DNA of 64,000 nucleotides. It comes from Ceratodon purpureus (Eukaryota > Streptophyta > Bryopsida > Pseudoditrichales > Ditrichaceae). The stretch is taken from contig CM026429.1 of assembly GCA_014871385.1 (NCBI GenBank), positions 17,030,751 to 17,094,750 on the forward strand. The letters run 5' to 3'. Below are positions 4,184-37,515 of this stretch, in pieces (the stretch's first letter is position 1; every line of letters starts with the position of its first letter). A program made the position numbers and the translations under genes. Under the pieces are notes generated by a model, which ran no database searches, was not told where the DNA came from, and saw nothing but the letters and a program-made list of their open reading frames with translations.

Positions 4184-7100
4184 ATGTTGAGTCGCGAACA
4201 GATTGCGTCCCCGCTTGTTTCATCCTCGCCCGCGGATCCACCGGTTTCTGACCCGATGGCGACCTCATGTGAGGAAGATGATCAAAACAGTGTGACCAGG
4301 TTTGCCAACTTGCTATTACTCGGAGTTTAAGATATTTGTGCAATTTGCAAGGATGCACCAACTTTTTGAATACATGATTCTTGAATTTCTTTTTCCGCTT
4401 TCAAGCTCGACAAGCTTCCGTTCTGAATCGATCATGTGATTTTGCCCTTGATCTAGTGGGCATTCTTCTAAATATTATTTTGATTCGTTGGTTGACGTTG
4501 CAGTTCTCCGAATCTGGAAGCCAAGCCTGAAATATTCCTTAGTCACAGTGGGGCTCAGAAACCTTTTGTTGAGCAGCTGTGCATTGATCTGGAAAGACAC
4601 AACCACTTCCCTTTCTTTGATCAGCGGGACGATAGCTTGTCCAAAGGGAAGAAGTTCGCACCTCTCATCTCTGACGCTGCCAAAGAATGTAAGGTAGCTG
4701 TGGTGGTTCTGTCAAGAGAATACCTTACTTCCACATGGCCGATGCTGGAGTTGGTCGCGTTTGTGCGCGCAAAGAGATCTGAGAACAAGAGCTTGGAGTT
4801 GCTCCCCCTTTTCTACAAGGCATCGGTTGCCGATCTCAGCGAGGAGTCAATCAAGAATGAGTGGAGACCTAGATGGATGGGCCTTGTTCGATCTGAGAGA
4901 GGAGACAACGTGGAGGAGTGGGCTGCAGCGGTTCGAGAAATTCGTGCTGTTAATGGCCTCAATTTTGAGCACTTTGGGAAGTCGGAAATGAAGTACAGAG
5001 AGGAGATTGTAAAACAGATTCTCAAGCTTGTACCTTCAGATCTACTCTTCGACACTTCCAAGATATCTGATTGTGACCGAACATGGGAGGTAAGTCCATA
5101 AGAGGGTTCGAAGTATGCCTGGGCTCTAGAACGGTAATATACGAGACCGTAGTTGATGCTCACGATAATGTATCGTAATGATATTGACCGAATGTAATTA
5201 TTGTCGGAATGTAACTGACCGCAATTTGTGAACCTTAACAAGACCCAATCCAAAACTAGCGATCGTGAGTTATGCTTTTGATCAGTGAAACTGTTCCTGT
5301 GAAGAGGGTTTAGGGAGCAGCTTTGTCATTAAGTGGATCCCAATTATTTGTGATATTCAGGAAATATAGTTCTTTCACCCATACCTGTAATCTTGATCGG
5401 AGGGTTCTGAATTCTAACAAGGTACTAATGGTATTCTAGGGCAACCTGCCGGAGCTACCCCAATTCCTGTTAGAGGATATCTTGAATCGGCTGGAGGATG
5501 CGAAAGATATTTCTAAAGCCAAGATGGTGTGCAAAGACTGGAGGGACGCTGGCAACAAGATTCGTTCTCTACGTATAGTCTGTCTCGACGTGTACCATGA
5601 AAGAGCTAGAGAAAATAGAGTGGACCTTTCGTCTTCGAAATCAGCAGGTTCCAGCTCAGGGTCTAGTACATCAAGTTCCAGTCAAGCAGGACGTTCTGAG
5701 AATCATTTTATTTTCAAAGATCAGGTGGTAAAGATCTTGGAACCTATGTCTGAAATCGTCCAGCTTCGTATTGAAGTGGAGCCGAAGCTTCAATCCAAAA
5801 CTGTTCCTGAGGGTGAGCGACGCAGAACCGACTTCTGGCTTGTCGACCCATATTTTTTGAGACTATGGCTTCCTAAAATGGGATCGACTCTCCAACACTT
5901 GTGTATAGTGGACTATGGACAACAGGCAATCATGCGGAGATCAAGCATTATCAAGATCTTATCAAAATGCTGTGAGTATACTTTCCAATTATCTTTTCCC
6001 ATTATTTTTTGGAAAATCAAAATTTCTGGCTGATCTGTTTACTAGATATCTTCGAGAGTCGAAGGTGGTAGTTTTTTTGTTTTTGATTTCTAATGTGCCA
6101 AAGTGAATGCCAAGCTTTACTTTTGAACCGAAGCACTATGATAGTAATTATGCTCTTTATTCGCTCGATTGAGTTGTATCTTGGAGTTTCGAAATGGTTT
6201 GAGAGGCACTCAACATGCATGTTCGCTTGATCCTGAAGGGAACAATAGTAGTCACCATAGACGAGAGTATTTGTGCAAGTCATAATTTATTGAGAACTTT
6301 TGCAGGCAAATTATTGAAAACTTTGGATCTAAGGAACATGTTTATCGACACAAACGATTGTGACGAGATGAACTTGATGGCGAGTTTGACATTGCGGTGT
6401 GTTAAAGTAGTTGGTGAGGCTCTCCAACATATCAATGATAAAATGCCCAAGTTACAGACGTTAGCATTGCTTGGAGTATTTGGCGCAGAGGGAGGAAATC
6501 TTACATTCCAAGATATGAAAGTGTTGTGCCTTGGTCTTTCAACGCCAGCCAAGGAGGTTGTAATGGAGCTTCCCAAGCTTGAGAAGCTGCAATTGAAGAT
6601 GCAATGCCCAACAAAGCTCATTATCAATGCATTGAATTTGAAGTATGTTGCGTTCAACTTGGAAGTGTTGGAACCCTCCAAAGTTGACTTGAGATCTATG
6701 AGTGGATTGGACGAGCTGTTATATGGTGCGACTAGCTTCATTACACTTTCGGATCTTGTTGGGAAGAATCGACCTCACCTGAAGAAGATTTTCTTGGACA
6801 TCCCTTGCATGGCACTTGGAGAAGACGGGAGGTTTTTGGGAGTGCTAAAGGATATAGCATTGCAGCTACCAAGTTTTAGTAACTTACACCAATGTGAGAA
6901 ACTCAATGTGCTAAACATTGGCCCTGGGTTATGGCATAGCATGGAAATGCAAGTGCAAGTATTATCCTTGGAGGAGAGATGGCCTTGTATGCAGACTCTC
7001 ATACTTCATATGATCCCACATGATGTAGAGGCTGCGATTAGGGCATTGGGATTGTTGTTAAGAGCATCGGTGACATCTTTGACTATCTTCATTCATACTA

Positions 7101-7222
7101 GTAGTCCAGTGACGAGGGAACTTATGATCCCAAGAATTGAAGAGGTTGCTAGAAGGCAAAATATTGTTCCCCAAATATTGACATGGACGAAAAGTTTAGA
7201 CTTCTCTTGTTTCAGCTTTTGA
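4184..7222 (+). CDS. TIR domain - F-box - leucine-rich repeat fusion protein
   Basis: Four exons join in frame: 4184-4299, 4504-5089, 5440-5971, 6306-7222 (716 aa). Each junction has GT-AG sites, for example GAG|GTAAGT and TTCTAG|GGC between TIR and F-box. Residues about 46-225 are a TIR domain: 'EIFLSHSG' is the first strand, and 'LSREYLTSTWPMLEL' carries the conserved glutamate (about E121) used by NAD-cleaving TIRs. Residues about 235-273 read as an F-box ('LPELPQFLLEDILNRL', ending 'VCKDWR'). A Ser-rich linker follows ('SSGSSTSSSS'), then irregular leucine-rich repeats to the end ('LLKTLDLR', 'LPKLEKLQLK'). F-boxes bind SKP1 in SCF ubiquitin ligases; plant TIRs act in immunity as NADases. 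The combination is not one of the standard TIR classes (TNL, TN, TX). An alternative first exon at 3202-3228 is possible. Expression is unproven, but the phase-matched junctions argue for one gene. Confidence 0.85.
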
Positions 7223-10200
7223 AAAGTTGAATTGAGCACTTTTCAATCCTGGCAACGACCATTTTGGAACGACCATTTTGGAAGAAAGGAGAACAATTCG
7301 ACTTGTTCCAATCATACAATTTACAGGTGTGGAGTTGCAAAAGTGGTGTTTGCATCACAGAGATGTATTTATTGCAAATGTTGTCATTGCAATAAAGAAA
7401 AGCAAGGTGGAGCGTGGAGCGTGATAATTGTACGAAGATAAATTTGCCTTCGTTGCAAACCATAGTATCTACACATCTTGTGTATCATCAAGGTGAATCG
7501 GAAGTGGCCATCAACATGATTATAGATTGTAGAGCTATTGTGTTTTAAACACATTATTGCACAAGGGTATAGGCATATGGTGACTTGAGGAATTATTGTG
7601 TTTCTTGAACACACTAGTGGATAGGTTAGGAGGTCCAAGGTGGACATTCTTCATGCTCCATTTCTTGGAATATTATTTGGAAGGGAGGAAAATCGAATAG
7701 GCATTGATGAAGATATTGGCAATGGATAGGTGAGAGTAGTATCAAATTTTGAATTTTGTAACAATTTGTCACAAGAAAATATAGTAGAGGATTTATTGAT
7801 AGAAATTAGAAAGTGATGAATATATTCTACATATAATTTGTGATTATGACAAGATGATGACTTTGGTTTACAAGGTATAGTTTGACAAAGTCCACATCAC
7901 TTATGTGTGAACCATTGATGCTTTGTAAAAGATGACATCTTTGATTAGATAATGATCAATATTTAAAAGAGAATATCCTTTTATTGAAGGCTCACTTAAT
8001 AATAATGATAAATTCTTTTTATTGTGGGCATAAGCAAGCTACACTAGTACAAAAATGTTGTCATAAACTGCATTTTCAGAGGAATGTTGCATTCAAGTAC
8101 TTGTAGACTTCACTGTAGCATCTCTTTGAGGGATATAATAGAATAATTTGATTGTAGATATAGATGAGCAATAATTTTTGGGGATTTTATAAATAAACTT
8201 CTCATGGTTTGACCGTAGTGAGTAATTTATATACCAATGGTTAACTGTCACAAAGTATATTTTTATAAAAATATACTTCATTTTGTAGGTTTTAGGTTAT
8301 ATTTTTTGATGACTTCTTTGTAAGAAGTGTATATATTTATGAAGCATATTATGTGAAAACATTCTTACAATTGCAATCCAGTCAACAATCAATAAAGACA
8401 ATGGGATTATTTTAGTAGGTCCTTCAAACATAAAGGAAAAAAAACTTTTTAATGAATTTTAACTTATGCCTATACAAAACACATATAATAGTACGTGGGC
8501 TTCCTATATTTCATGCACCAAAAGCTTTTTCCTTCAAGATATCATAATTTTTCCAAAAAAATGTACTCAAAATATACTTTATTTTTGCCCAAAGTGTAGT
8601 AACCCTAGCTTGCTTTTACCCTTGTATAGTATTTAAGGAATGGATGGTTGCTTCCCAATCTCTAGAAGATGATAGGCTTGAAATGCTATGAAACTATTAA
8701 TGATGGGTATTGAAAGCAATTGCTTTAGATTTAAGAGTTGATGAAAATATCAAGTAGTTTATTATGAGATGTTTGTTGGAATTTTGGAAGTAATACCTAC
8801 TATGGAGACCTTTTGATAAAATTTTGGAGACAATACCTCAATTAGTTGAAACTTGATGATAGAATAATCAAAGCAATGAATTTCCACTGAACTTCTTTTG
8901 ACATTTATTCATTATCAACAATTCTTTTGAAAGATTGTCTACGGAAGTTTTTAACAACATTTGAAATGTTGAAGACTTAGATATATTATGCCATCTTTAA
9001 TTTTCACTTAGAATATTGCTGATAGAGACAATAACGCAGTATAATGGAGTAAATCCCACTACATCATAGTGCTACATTGTGATGTGTAAAGTTTGTAACT
9101 CTTATTGCTTAAAACTGCTTGTATGCACTCTTTCAAGATACAGTAGTACTTGTTACTTGTTTGAATGAATTCTTCACGTGCAAGAGAGTGTACAATCCAG
9201 TGATCTATCACCGGTGCAACATTTCATGATCCACTTCCACAGGCGCTCATTCTGAGTTTTAGGACAACTATCCTGGTGAGGTGTTGCTAGATCGCTCATG
9301 TAGAGTTGAAGTATACAGTGAAGGCAGACTGACGGCACACGCACGCAATCTCATTGGAATCAATCCTGATCCATTCCCATCTAGAAGCATAGGGCCACCT
9401 ATGCCATAGATTCGCATTGGTTTTTGGTGCATCTCTGGTTCCAAAACGTTTTAAGGCTTCGTGGGCCACTTCAATATCATGCAGCGGCTGTGCTAAGAGA
9501 TTGGGTGCAAGCAACACGATGGGATATGCTCGGTGGCACTGTGTAACACGTCCTGGCTCGGATAAACTCGGTCTCCCTTCTCTGTTTCAGTTGGAGATTG
9601 ATCCATGTTAGAGTTTCTCGAGGCCAAGTTTCTGCGCGTGGCATGCAGAACAGTGCCTTTACCGCTCAGACAATGTGTTCAATTGTATCAGGACAGCGTT
9701 GGGATTAGAAGCAATGCTGATGATAATGATTGCGAATTCTATAGATTCCCTAAATTCAGGATTCGAATAGTCTGTAAATTTTCGATCACTGAGCTTGGTT
9801 TTGGGTGAACACTCTCTGAAGAACCTTCCTTCGTGGGTATTTTGCAGTGACTTGCAACTTCGTACATTGACTTCATGTGACCGAATATTCTAAATTAATT
9901 TGAGATGCTACTGGGAGCGTCTCAACGCAGTGGGCCGGCAAGTAGTATTCACTATTTAAATATTGCCTCAGCATGCTCATTTCCTATGAATCTTGAATTT
10001 ATATTTCAAATTGTGGATCTGTAATGGAAGTCTAAGATCTAAGTTTTACACTGATGAATATTATGCAGACAGAACGTCAGTAGGAATAGGCAACCCCTCA
10101 ACCACTCAGTTAACTTCAAAAACACTCGTTCAAAGAAGTTAGTAAGGAGGTAAGCAGGCCATTCATGGCTCCAAATGCTCAAATAATAATTGGTGGCACA

Positions 10201-10787: not shown

Positions 10788-11336
10788 TCAGAGCTTGAAA
10801 GACAGGGCCACCTTAGGTCGATTCTCGACTTGGATGACCAAATACTTATCAGATTTCAACCTCCAGCTCTCCATCGCCGTCACTTCTACAGTTCCCCCTT
10901 CACCACCATCTTGCCGTCGTTAAAGTCGTGCTAATTCGCCAGGTTTATGTGCAGCACCTTCTTCACCGGATCACCAATCCTCGTGTAGGCACCCACCTGC
11001 ACGGTTATGCCCACCTGTACCACCGGATGCTCCACACTCACCTCCACCGGCCCCATAGCCACCCTCGGCCCTGTCTGCACCTTCACCGCATTCCTGGATC
11101 CCAACCAACTTCCCAGCTGGACGGCGACATGCATCCCCCTGTGCCATATTGCGCAGCACGAGCTCCATCAAGTAGCTGGGGCACTCCTCCTGCTCAACAG
11201 GGTCAGTAATAGATGCACCACTGAATCCAAGTGTTGGCCCATCTTGTTTCCCAGATTTCACCGACACAGTAAACGGATATTGCAGCCATGATCAGAATAC
11301 CGGCCACCAGAATCACGAAGTGCACCTTGATGGCAT
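10788..11336 (-). pseudogene. Broken inverted copy of the small secreted protein gene at 12613-13191
   Basis: On the minus strand this stretch parallels the intact gene 1.3 kb away from start to stop. Shared blocks include the signal-peptide start (AIKV...LVAG), 'LVLRNMAQ', 'MGPVEVSVEHP', 'PVKKVLHINL', 'TAMESWRLKS' and the final 'LSFKL' plus stop. One base is missing right after the ATG, so the frame is lost at codon 2. More shifts follow near 11130 and 10930, and there is an in-frame stop after 'HINLAN'. It cannot encode the full protein. The divergence (many substitutions, several indels) suggests an old duplication. Confidence 0.8.
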
Positions 11337-12612: not shown

Positions 12613-13191
12613 ATGGCCATCAAGGTGGTGCACTCCGAGTTTCTGGTGGCTGGGACTCTGCTCTTGGCTACATGGATCATCTGCAGTGTGGCTGAAGCTA
12701 CAACGAGTCCAGCTGATCCCACATTTCACAGTTCGAGTGTGGCATCCGTTGAGTCTGTTGTTGGGGAGGGGAACAGCAGCAGCAGCAGCTTCTCGGTGGA
12801 GTTCGTGCTGCGCAACATGGCGCAGGAGAGTGTCACCTTCCAGCTGGGAAGTGAGTTATTAAGGTCTGGGAGGAGTGGGGTGGGTGGCGAGGAGGTGGAG
12901 GTGCAGACAGGGCAGTGGGGGGCCATGGGGCCGGTGGAGGTGAGTGTGGAGCATCCGCCGGTGGTGCAGGTATTTGTGATGGTGAAGGTCCAGACGAGGA
13001 GTGCTCCGGTGAAGAAGGTGCTGCACATCAACCTCGGGAACTACGCCTTTGACGATGGCGAGATGCTTGTGAAGGGGGCCAGGAGATCGGTGGTGGTGAC
13101 GGCGATGGAGAGCTGGAGATTGAAGTCTGGCAAGTATTTAGTCGTTCAAGTGGGGACTCAATGGAAGATGGCTCTCTCCTTCAAGCTCTAG
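12613..13191 (+). CDS. Small putative secreted protein, unknown family
   Basis: Single-exon frame of 192 aa starting in a good context (ACCATGGCC). Residues about 8-28 form a hydrophobic segment ('FLVAGTLLLATWIICSVAEA') that looks like a signal peptide or signal anchor. A Ser-rich patch ('NSSSSSF') comes next, then about 130 residues rich in alternating Val/hydrophobic positions, suggesting a beta-sheet domain ('GPVEVSVEHPPVVQVFVMVKVQ', 'KKVLHINLGNYAF'). There are few cysteines. I recognise no family. The diverged inverted copy upstream keeps the same blocks, which supports this as a real gene rather than a chance frame. Confidence 0.65.
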   Translation: MAIKVVHSEFLVAGTLLLATWIICSVAEATTSPADPTFHSSSVASVESVVGEGNSSSSSFSVEFVLRNMAQESVTFQLGSELLRSGRSGVGGEEVEVQTGQWGAMGPVEVSVEHPPVVQVFVMVKVQTRSAPVKKVLHINLGNYAFDDGEMLVKGARRSVVVTAMESWRLKSGKYLVVQVGTQWKMALSFKL

Positions 13192-29644: not shown

Positions 29645-32600
29645 TCAGACATCGATCACGACCTTCAGATCCTGATCTGTAAATTCATGGAAGCACTTCC
29701 TGGCTTTAGCATCCGTGATGAGTTTCTTCCAGATCTCTCCGCCTCCGCTTAAGGTTTCAGCGTTTCCAACTATCCACACGCAGTATCTGCAGCTCAATCA
29801 TTTCAAAGTCTACTTAGCTAGACCAAAACTTGAGAGCATCATGAGTTCTAGCATTTGCTACAGAAACTCAAAAGTTTTTCATGGAATCTACAGTAATACA
29901 TGCTCACCATGTCACGCTGATAATTTGACCATATTGTAGTAGAAACCATATGATGAGAACCTTACCTTCCGCGAGTAATTGCAACATTTAAGCGCCGGCT
30001 ATCGTTCAGGAAACCAATCAGTTTGCTTTGATTGGCTCTCACAGCAGAGAAAATTATCACGTCCCTCTCGTTGCCTTGAAATCCATCGACAGATTTTACT
30101 TCAACGTCCAAAGCACTGTTTAGGCGTTGTTGAACCAGCGACTGCTTCAAGGCTTCCACTTGCATTGCGTAGGGAGAAATGACACCAACGCTCAAGCTCT
30201 TGATTTTTCTCTCTGCACACACTGCTCACATTAACAACGCACATTAGACAAGTTCCGAGTTGATCAATTATTTGCATTATCTGTTGAATCTTGTGAAATA
30301 ATTTCAGATCATCGTTACAGATTGATGAGTACACCAGAGAGAGATCATTGACAGAATTGGTACCTTTTCCAAGACAAATCACAAGTTTTGTCACGACTGC
30401 TACCTCCTGTGGATTGCTCCAGCCTTTTGGCTGCGCTACTTCAGCTCCGGTTCCGCAGTCAATAAACGCATAAGCTCCGTAAGGTGAAGCGTTAGCAAAT
30501 TCCATTCCATAATCCGACGCAAGCACATTGGGACCATCTTTCAACTCGCTCTCATAGAATTGCGAGTTTGGGAAGTGACTGATCTCAGGCATCATCCGGT
30601 ACTGGCAGTTCAACATATGTCGGCAACTGTGACGCAAATTCTGCAGTCTTTCGAAGAGGCTGCGACTGTAGCCAGATTTCTCTGCAACCTGTAAAACCAG
30701 TCATAAAATAGCCGTAAGACAATATTCGTGCAATGCATTTATTCGACCTTATCTTTTAATCTTTAATTTCTCACTAGCTTGAGATCTCACCTTGCTAATT
30801 ACTGTACCCGGAAGCTGTTTGTGATCTCCGACAAGAATAAGCTGCTTGAGATCTCTCATTCCTGATACTACAATGGAGCCTGCTTCGACAAGCTGTGATG
30901 CCTCGTCAATTATCGCGCATTCAAAGGTTGCTGTAGCCATCAGCGGCGACCCAGCTGCCGAAACTGTGCAAAAGACTAACGTCGCATTCTTGAAGCATTG
31001 TGATCTCAGCCATTCGTCTTTTGGCTCACGGCCTTGTGGATTCTGTTCCGTGGCCAGCAGAGTGCAACCGGGTCGTGACGCCAAAGCTTCAAGAAGCGCT
31101 TCCCTTATTCGAAGAAAATTCAGTTTCGAAACAATATCGATGGAGCTGGTCTGTCCACCTGACAAACTCAGATCTGCAATAATTCTTTCGGGTGCAGTAA
31201 TATTCACCGCCGGCGTACTGAACCAACTTGTTGCGTCCACGGGAGGTTGTAAGGGCATGGCGTTTATAATGCTGTTCATGAGCTCAAAGGTCATGGTCAT
31301 AGCCTTGCTTGTCGTCACGTCTATGTGACATTTGGGAAGCTCACTTAGGAGCACCAGCAGATGTTCCTCCATTCGAGCTTGCATCTCAATCATGCGTTCT
31401 CTGGCAAACATCCAAAATGCAGTATTTTGTGCTACTTCCTGCTTCTCGGAATCGATCTCCATTCTTTTGCCAAATTGATCGTAGTCCTTCGTACAGTTCC
31501 CATACCAGTAGTACCATGCAAATTGCGCAGGCGAATCGGTCAGAAAAGTTTCCACCAACTGAACATAGCCTTTCCATCCGGTTGCTGGACTTAACGCTGC
31601 TGTCAGCCGCTGAATTCTGTAAGGTAGAAACACCTTCTCCATTAAGGCATTCCCTTTCACTACCCCATCCATTCCACGGACGCTGCCCACGAGGACTACA
31701 TCACGCAATTCAATGGGAGAGCATTGCTGGCAGCTCGTTGAATCTGTTTTGCTTTGCGAATTCCTAACTCTTGCACAGAAACTTGAAAATATCTCCTGTT
31801 GTGAAACGAGACTCTCTTCTTTGTACGATTGACCAACCGGGAAGAAGCTCATCATCCTTTTGAAAACCTCGAGGACCGCAGCGTTGGTTGGAGCTGAAAT
31901 TAAAGTGCGGTACTGGAGACATCCCAGGACAGAGATCAAGGTGACCAGCATCGCCGTCTTTCCAGTGCCTGGTGGGCCTTGCACCATCCTCACGTGCGAT
32001 TTGACATCCGGAGTGAGCAACCCTGCGAGTGCGCTCTTGACAACATCCCTTTGAGAGTCGTTCAGTCTTCTTGATGTGCAGTACTCTTCCACACGCTCTA
32101 GGGTCCCCACTCCATTAGGCGTCTGACGAAGGGCCAGCGAGTTAGTTCCTGCTGGAACGACCTGCATGTAAATCGGCAATTAACGACGGCATCATCATTG
32201 ATCAATACATGAAAATTTACACCAGCTGTTCGTTCAGGAAATAATTCTGGACACTGGTATGGCCCATGGCTCGCATGAAATCGGAAATAACTCATTACCT
32301 GCTGAGTGATTTGCAGCACATCTTGCATAACAAACATCTTCGACGCTCGGCCTGAAGAGCTAGCCTTGATGATTGAGTTCCAGATACGCTCAGCTGGTAT
32401 CAAACTCAGTCCCAGCAAAACAGCGTGCCACGAAGTGGAGGCCATGGTCATTTTCTCAAGCATTGGACTTCCGGCTTGGACACAAGCAGTGGCGCTCACA
32501 ACCGAAGATTCTTCTTTTGCATTGTTAACATACACAAGAAGGAACTTCTGTGGCGCCTGCAAATTAGCCAAACACTCTCGCTCGGCGTTCCATTCTGGCA

Positions 32601-33207
32601 GCTCCTCACTGCATAGGAGAAGGAGGTCCGAAGTTCTGAAAGGCAGAGCGCTTCGCTGTGACGCCCGTGACGAGTGCAGACGAAATTTCCACATGGAATG
32701 GTCTTCGTTTTTGGCTGACATGCAGATCATCAACTTGCTTAGTTGCACCGGGAAAATGGCGTGGCCGTCGTTGTCCTGATTGGTGCTCTTTTCTAGAGCT
32801 TGATGTAGTGTAGCGCGAACTTCCTCAAGAAATGGCACTCGAAATGCTTCAAGGTACTCTTCCATTGAAGAAAACTCCTCCGGAATGCATTCCACCTAAT
32901 GTACCAAGATGTTTAGGTCAACATGCGTGCAAACTTCGATCCTATTGTTGGGTAGCACATCAAAACAACGTCTCATACATGTTGCTACTATTTGGGAAGG
33001 AAATAATGCAGAAAAATTGCTGAAAATCTCTAAAGCTCATGACTGTGATCACATCAACATACAGTAATATTATACCTTGAAGAGTGTGGAGCTTGTAATG
33101 TCGTCAGTGTTCCACTTCAACACTCTCGATTGCAACGTATCAAACTTAGACTTCGAACTGAACACCGTCCTGCCTTCAGCACACTTGGACTCCTCTAGAC
33201 CCGCCAT
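29645..33207 (-). CDS. SF1 helicase, SEN1/UPF1-like plant group
   Basis: Six exons on the minus strand: 33076-33207, 32299-32895, 30791-32161, 30364-30688, 29966-30212, 29645-29786 (937 aa; phases fit). N-terminus 'FKVECIPEEFSSMEEYLEAFRVPFLEEV' is typical of plant SEN1-like helicases. Helicase motifs in order: Walker A 'GPPGTGKT' (about 305-312), 'DEASQ' (about 662), 'GDHKQLP' (about 688), 'NCQYRM', 'VKSVDGFQGNERDVIIFSAVR', 'RLNVAITRGR' and 'VWIVGN'. All key residues needed for ATP use are present. About 350 residues separate Walker A and DEAS, as is usual for these proteins. They unwind RNA or RNA:DNA hybrids in transcription termination and RNA decay; the precise member is not clear. The last exon is short but completes the standard C-terminal block, so the gene looks intact. 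Confidence 0.92.
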
Positions 33208-37192: not shown

Positions 37193-37515
37193 GACAACAA
37201 GAGTACCAACAGCATCAAAATACTCATAATGCACATGTACTGGACTCTTCAATCACTTGGATTTGGTGGTGTGACAACAAGAGTATCGACAGCATCAAAA
37301 ATACTCATAATGCACATGTACTAGACTCTTCAATCACCTGGATTTGGTGGTGTGACAACAAGAGTATCAACAGCATCAAAAATACTCATAATGCACATGT
37401 ACTAGACTCTTCAATCACTTGGATTTGGTGGTGTCACAACAAGAGTATCGACAGCATCAAAAATACTCATAATGCACATCTACTGGACTCTTCAATCACC
37501 TGAATTTGGTGGTGC
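37193..37515 (+). repeat. Minisatellite, four copies of an 81-base unit
   Basis: Copies begin at about 37193, 37273, 37354 and 37435 (spacing 80, 81, 81). Each unit contains ACAACAAGAGTAT, CAGCATCAAAAATACTCATA, ATGCACATGT and GGATTTGGTGGTGTGA. The copies differ at only a few positions, so the expansion is recent. Because 81 is a multiple of three, one frame stays open (37159-37503) and repeats 'NTHNAHVLDSSITWIWW'. I regard that frame as a by-product. Confidence 0.92.

Follow-up and report, generated by a model that had tools for sequence, protein, structure and literature searches.

The window analysed here, a stretch of 64,000 nucleotides from the Ceratodon purpureus genome (C9:17030751-17094750; 362,488,568 bases in 151 contigs were searched), carries a four-exon gene on the forward strand whose exons join in frame to encode a protein of 716 aa followed by a stop codon (Table 1). 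This exon model, including a phase-0 junction between a TIR-coding and an F-box-coding exon, had been proposed in a sequence-only reading of the same DNA and proved sound: all junctions follow the GT..AG rule and keep the frame, with intron phases, as given by the exon lengths, of 2, 0 and 1. Specifically, the intron at which the TIR and F-box parts meet opens at the donor GAG/GTAAGT (5089/5090) and closes at the acceptor TTCTAG/GGC (5439/5440). The 5' end of the gene is putative; 4202-4282 aligns weakly (E of 6.0), in the same frame, with residues 148-175 of the second fusion protein described below. Taken as a whole, we consider it highly probable that Ceratodon purpureus has here one fusion gene encoding a TIR-F-box-LRR protein.

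Table 1. Features of the TIR-F-box-LRR gene, in window coordinates.
Feature	Position	Strand	Remarks
Exon 1	4184..4299	+	Short stretch ahead of the TIR; putative start codon
Intron 1, phase 2	4300..4503	+	Same position and phase at L021, a TIR-NB-ARC gene
Exon 2, TIR domain	4504..5089	+	Pfam stretch residues 49-213, about 4532-5026
E121, putative catalytic glutamate	4748..4750	+	Aligned with the L6 and RPP1 TIRs
Intron 2, phase 0, TIR/F-box join	5090..5439	+	Donor as in the TIR/NB-ARC intron of paralogues
Exon 3	5440..5971	+	F-box-like segment residues 238-274 (5449-5559), variable linker, LRR start
Intron 3, phase 1	5972..6305	+	By eye, L050 and L051 have the donor in the same position
Exon 4, LRR region and stop codon	6306..7222	+	94% identical to P0001; LRR fold in the P0001 model

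Several other features lie in the window. About 30 bases beyond the stop codon of the fusion gene, a 14-base direct repeat, AACGACCATTTTGG, occurs in two copies (7254-7283). A 192-aa single-exon frame at 12613-13188 (+) has three database matches, one of them 99% identical; tried as a synteny probe to M758, it yielded among these three none from KC19 or M758, which we take to denote the strains GG1 and R40, respectively. A relative of the C-terminal half of this frame, with an in-frame stop, lies 1.5 kb away at 10791-11086 (-). Long frames at 30101-32895 (-) resemble, by eye, a superfamily 1 RNA/DNA helicase, and at 37193-37514 four units of 81 bp, 94% alike, are arrayed in tandem.

The order of TIR, F-box and LRR, also put forward in the sequence-only reading, is borne out part by part. 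Both TIR profiles exceed their Pfam cut-offs (TIR_2, E of 1e-15, 58.7 against 28 bits; TIR, E of 1.8e-13, 51.1 against 21.3 bits), and the fold likewise places the domain among TIRs; by the same Pfam and fold evidence it is a Toll/interleukin TIR, and a reading of the name as the auxin receptor TIR1 was rejected. In the 716-aa protein the F-box-like match (E of 1.5e-4, 21.9 bits) falls below the Pfam cut-off of 24.3, as does the match to the F-box model (12.9 bits against 20.5). Because three of the eight scanned relatives with an F-box part pass an F-box cut-off (P0011, P0027 and P0030), the segment can probably be assigned to an F-box family, with the window protein as a weak match; a further one of the eight, P0002, has no F-box match at E <= 0.1. 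The Pfam model of F-box-associated LRRs, LRR_At5g56370, is matched at 1.5e-4 and 22 bits against a cut-off of 27. An LRR fold does follow the F-box in the structural model of P0001, the second fusion protein, whose F-box and LRR are modelled and match D3 and FBXL2, the FBXL2 match spanning the F-box (residues 378-836); the TIR of this model is poor, with a pLDDT of about 40-55.

No NB-ARC was found in the 716-aa protein, nor in the window at E <= 1e-3, and a search for remnants at E <= 10 gave scattered matches only (best E 0.084). The TIR itself appears well preserved. The glutamate at about E121, correctly reported as retained, aligns with that of the W..x..EL motif in L6 and RPP1 in a nearly invariant column, the active-site Trp is kept as well, 59 of the 60 positions at residues 101-160 are identical between the two fusions, and the fold is close to those of NADase-active plant TIRs. 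With Trp and Glu kept and residues 101-160 near-identical, NADase activity is plausible on sequence grounds, and because a TIR-NB-ARC protein (P0026, M758_9G120900) has the same TIR, this conservation may reflect the TNL.

The 716-aa query returned 52 homologous proteins, from 7984 scored candidates sharing the most words with it. When BLAST was run with the three parts, F-box or LRR parts only were found in 34 of them, the TIR only in 17, and both halves in a single one, P0001 (M758_9G120800), a C. purpureus 'hypothetical protein' in which TIR, F-box segment and LRR follow one another as in the window protein. A bryophyte homologue with both domains, the absence of which had been named as evidence against the fusion, thus does exist, and its source is probably the window's own species. 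P0001 is 79% identical to the window protein over 98% of the query, although the parts differ greatly (TIR 81%, F-box exon 61%, LRR 94%), and the join falls at the same boundary (CDRICK/RIMPELPQ in P0001, CDRTWE/GNLPELPQ in the window). Judged by sequence, with strong homologues for each part and the whole order present in P0001, this arrangement is more than chance. P0001 differs in being 881 aa long, with a longer N-terminus. M758_9G120900 has an identical TIR, and the two proteins share 378 identical residues and then split, M758_9G120900 continuing as CDRICK/ELAGKF. By eye, a hydrophobic N-terminal stretch resembling a membrane anchor is present in the moss TIR proteins P0026, P0031 and P0032 and in the other fusion, P0001; the window gene, with its putative 5' end, showed no such stretch. 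Among the matches listed for the 716-aa query there is no KC19 protein for the window locus; the TIR and NB-ARC exons of a KC19 protein, P0034 (KC19_5G034700), find 98.9-99.5% matches in this genome.

At the other loci examined in the genome, the two halves of the gene lie apart. Among the best 150 of 299 candidates, no other copy of the window TIR exon exceeds 58% identity, and all 19 other TIR loci examined (20 including the window) carry sequence coding for NB-ARC in their downstream flanks. The LRR exon gave ten matches (11 candidates scored) at eight loci, the window included, two of which are fragments or carry stops; L055 (C7:15475001-15483000) and L048 (C10) are broken, stop-bearing copies of the F-box-LRR family. 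Among the matches listed, no TIR lies within 60 kb of the seven other F-box-LRR loci, the nearest being at 60.6 kb. Searched with P0001, P0026 and P0002, the flanks of the window (30 kb upstream, 10 kb downstream) gave no match at E <= 1e-4, and a search with P0026 (best 40 of 734 candidates, E limit 1e-40) found no R40-type TNL elsewhere in the genome, the best TIR besides the window being 59% and the best NB-ARC 44% identical.

How the two halves could have come together is suggested by the introns. The phase-0 donor of exon 2 has a counterpart at the same place in L021, a TIR-NB-ARC gene, and in several other paralogues. Of the F-box genes that stand alone, L051, L052 and L053 have a phase-0 intron ahead of the F-box exon, in the latter two directly before the F-box (SMEE/ALPVHVL and SMEE/TLPVHVI, respectively); at L050 the annotated protein begins inside the F-box exon. 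Both parents would therefore have had a phase-0 intron at the join. The simplest reading of these sequences is that a TIR-NB-ARC gene had its NB-ARC half replaced by F-box-LRR exons via intron recombination: a small F-box family of mosses would have supplied the F-box-LRR exons, linked to the 5' exons of a TNL by way of compatible phase-0 introns.

Phylogenies agree with such a history. FastTree trees were built from a choice of the matches (13 for the TIR, 18 for the F-box exon, 17 for the LRR region), and in all three the window and P0001 group together (support of 0.993, 0.929 and 0.999, respectively), as would be expected of one inherited fusion; the TIR group also includes P0026 and the fragment P0054. 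The branch sums between the two fusions are nonetheless very unequal, at about 0.28 for the TIR, 0.73 for the F-box exon and 0.07 for the LRR. Such uneven divergence, which makes 5440-7222 a mosaic relative to P0001, points to copies having exchanged sequence or to constraint that is very unequal. Compared with paralogues, all three blocks show far fewer nonsynonymous than synonymous changes; the ratio of the two was computable in one of seven comparisons (0.25, F-box exon against L051), the rest being saturated at synonymous sites. Two alignments, in which TIR-NB-ARC rows or TIR fragments were misaligned, were set aside.

From its sequence, the fusion protein probably works as an SCF subunit. 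The F-box would dock on SKP1/CUL1, and the LRR would keep the substrate role of the F-box-LRR family, a function likely to have been retained given that the two fusions resemble each other most in the LRR and that nonsynonymous differences are few. The TIR would add a surface contacting other TIR proteins, so that SCF ubiquitination may limit TIR signalling. The sequence-only reading had put forward two possible functions, an SCF receptor recognising TIR proteins by TIR-TIR contact and a TIR enzyme controlled by ubiquitin. That the protein's role is the control of TIR signalling is a more tentative proposal, made by analogy: SCF-CPR1 limits the TNL SNC1 (PMC9153377). Intron-mediated exon shuffling combined with an SCF limit on TIR signalling is nevertheless the best overall explanation we can offer, albeit one to be held with some reserve.

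A different, somewhat unlikely possibility is a receptor and executor in one, in which the LRR senses a target, clustered TIRs cleave NAD+, and the F-box, in place of the NB-ARC, sets the protein's level or acts as an off-switch. The kept active-site residues, the near-identity around them and the closeness of the fold to NADase-active TIRs all speak for it, as does the finding that TIRs of nonflowering plants lead to cell death in 11 of 20 cases (PMC11218826). However, no known oligomerising module takes the place of the NB-ARC, and the conservation of the TIR may stem from its counterpart in P0026. Reasoning from the analogy above, we favour SCF control of TIR signalling.

The identity of the P0001 and P0026 TIRs raises a further idea, which we regard as rather improbable: that two receptors draw on a single set of TIR exons, which splicing in M758 would join to NB-ARC-LRR in M758_9G120900 and to F-box-LRR in M758_9G120800, with only the F-box ending retained in the window genome, so that an SCF ubiquitin-ligase module would replace the NB-ARC switch in an NLR-like receptor. 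The run of 378 identical residues and the split at an exon boundary are predicted by such splicing, and equally by a recent tandem duplication; the separate locus tags of the two M758 genes favour duplication over alternative splicing.

It is more improbable still that the window holds two transcription units, a TIR-only gene read for a few codons past the intron 2 donor, and an F-box-LRR gene of its own. Retention of intron 2 would end a TIR protein four codons beyond the exon (GTA AGT CCA TAA), and in mosses F-box-LRR proteins and TIR proteins often stand alone, as the 34 and 17 partial matches described above attest. Also counting against the fusion, P0001 is itself a gene prediction and has its whole TIR in common with the TIR-NB-ARC model of neighbouring tag. 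Yet the two parts are separated by only 350 bp, and exon 3 has no usable start: it begins just after an in-frame TAG (its own acceptor), its first Met is residue 263, within the F-box, and in intron 2 three ATGs give rise to five phase-0 ATG..GT candidates; their donors are weak, and one candidate would reduce the intron to 9 bases. Furthermore, the R40 counterpart is annotated as a single protein, and the two-gene reading appears strained. A search for transcript fragments across 5089/5440 found none, its three matches (P0053, P0054, P0055) all being one-sided; P0053, 97.8% identical in exon 3, reads on into intron 3, and P0054 covers the TIR exon and reads on past the donor.

Two further readings have little in their favour. 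The TIR could be bait, with effectors that hit TIR proteins being caught and ubiquitinated by the F-box-LRR part; integrated domains of NLRs do overlap with host targets of effectors (PMC4759884) and mosses have many TIR genes (at least 150 scored matches here), but no effector is known in this setting, and we consider the idea quite improbable. Least probable of all is a functionless by-product of duplication, recent or decaying, as the very uneven divergence of the fusion copies and their possible location on different chromosomes might indicate for an unstable locus. By length, the contig with the window (17,567,963) is distinct from the KC19_9 contig, and the second fusion bears the tag M758_9. 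Against this reading stand 716 open codons, the presence of an intact, 79% identical relative in a second genome, and low nonsynonymous change relative to paralogues (a measure that also covers the time before the fusion).

We conclude that this is a real, unusual fusion of known parts, in an order that we did not find described. Moss TNLs correspond to the window gene in the TIR exon, in intron 1 and at the intron 2 donor, but carry an NB-ARC that the window gene lacks in its protein, in the window and in the flanks examined. Moss F-box/LRR proteins (P0002, P0003, P0011; some of them named after At4g29420) share the F-box exon, intron 3 and the LRR exon and, unlike the fusion, have no TIR in any of the 34 matches. 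Among NLRs, integrated F-boxes are described in apple, tomato and potato, in proteins selected for NB-ARC (PMC4759884); these too combine immune-receptor parts with an F-box, and by their description in that paper they are set apart from the window protein by the presence of NB-ARC. Ceratodon purpureus reportedly has more than 315 NLR-related loci, and mosses an expansion of integrated domains (PMC11218826). TIR-X proteins occur in all species tested in the same work, the main text of which makes no mention of F-box (PMC11218826). Among the best-ranked papers and abstracts that our literature search covered, no description of a TIR-F-box protein lacking NB-ARC was found; the window protein may be among the TIR-X entries of supplementary tables.

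If the reading favoured here is true, TIR signalling and SCF ubiquitination are linked within one natural protein, and the pieces of a TNL are recombinable at a phase-0 intron to give a receptor-like protein without NB-ARC. Surveys keyed to NB-ARC would miss such proteins or class them as TIR-X. Such a link would bear on how TIR signals are read and limited in mosses, plants said to lack EDS1 (PMC11218826, PMC9153377). Ceratodon can be cultivated, making RNA, knock-out and binding tests direct. SCF-CPR1 and SNC1, separate proteins where here there is one fused protein, serve as a working analogy (PMC9153377).
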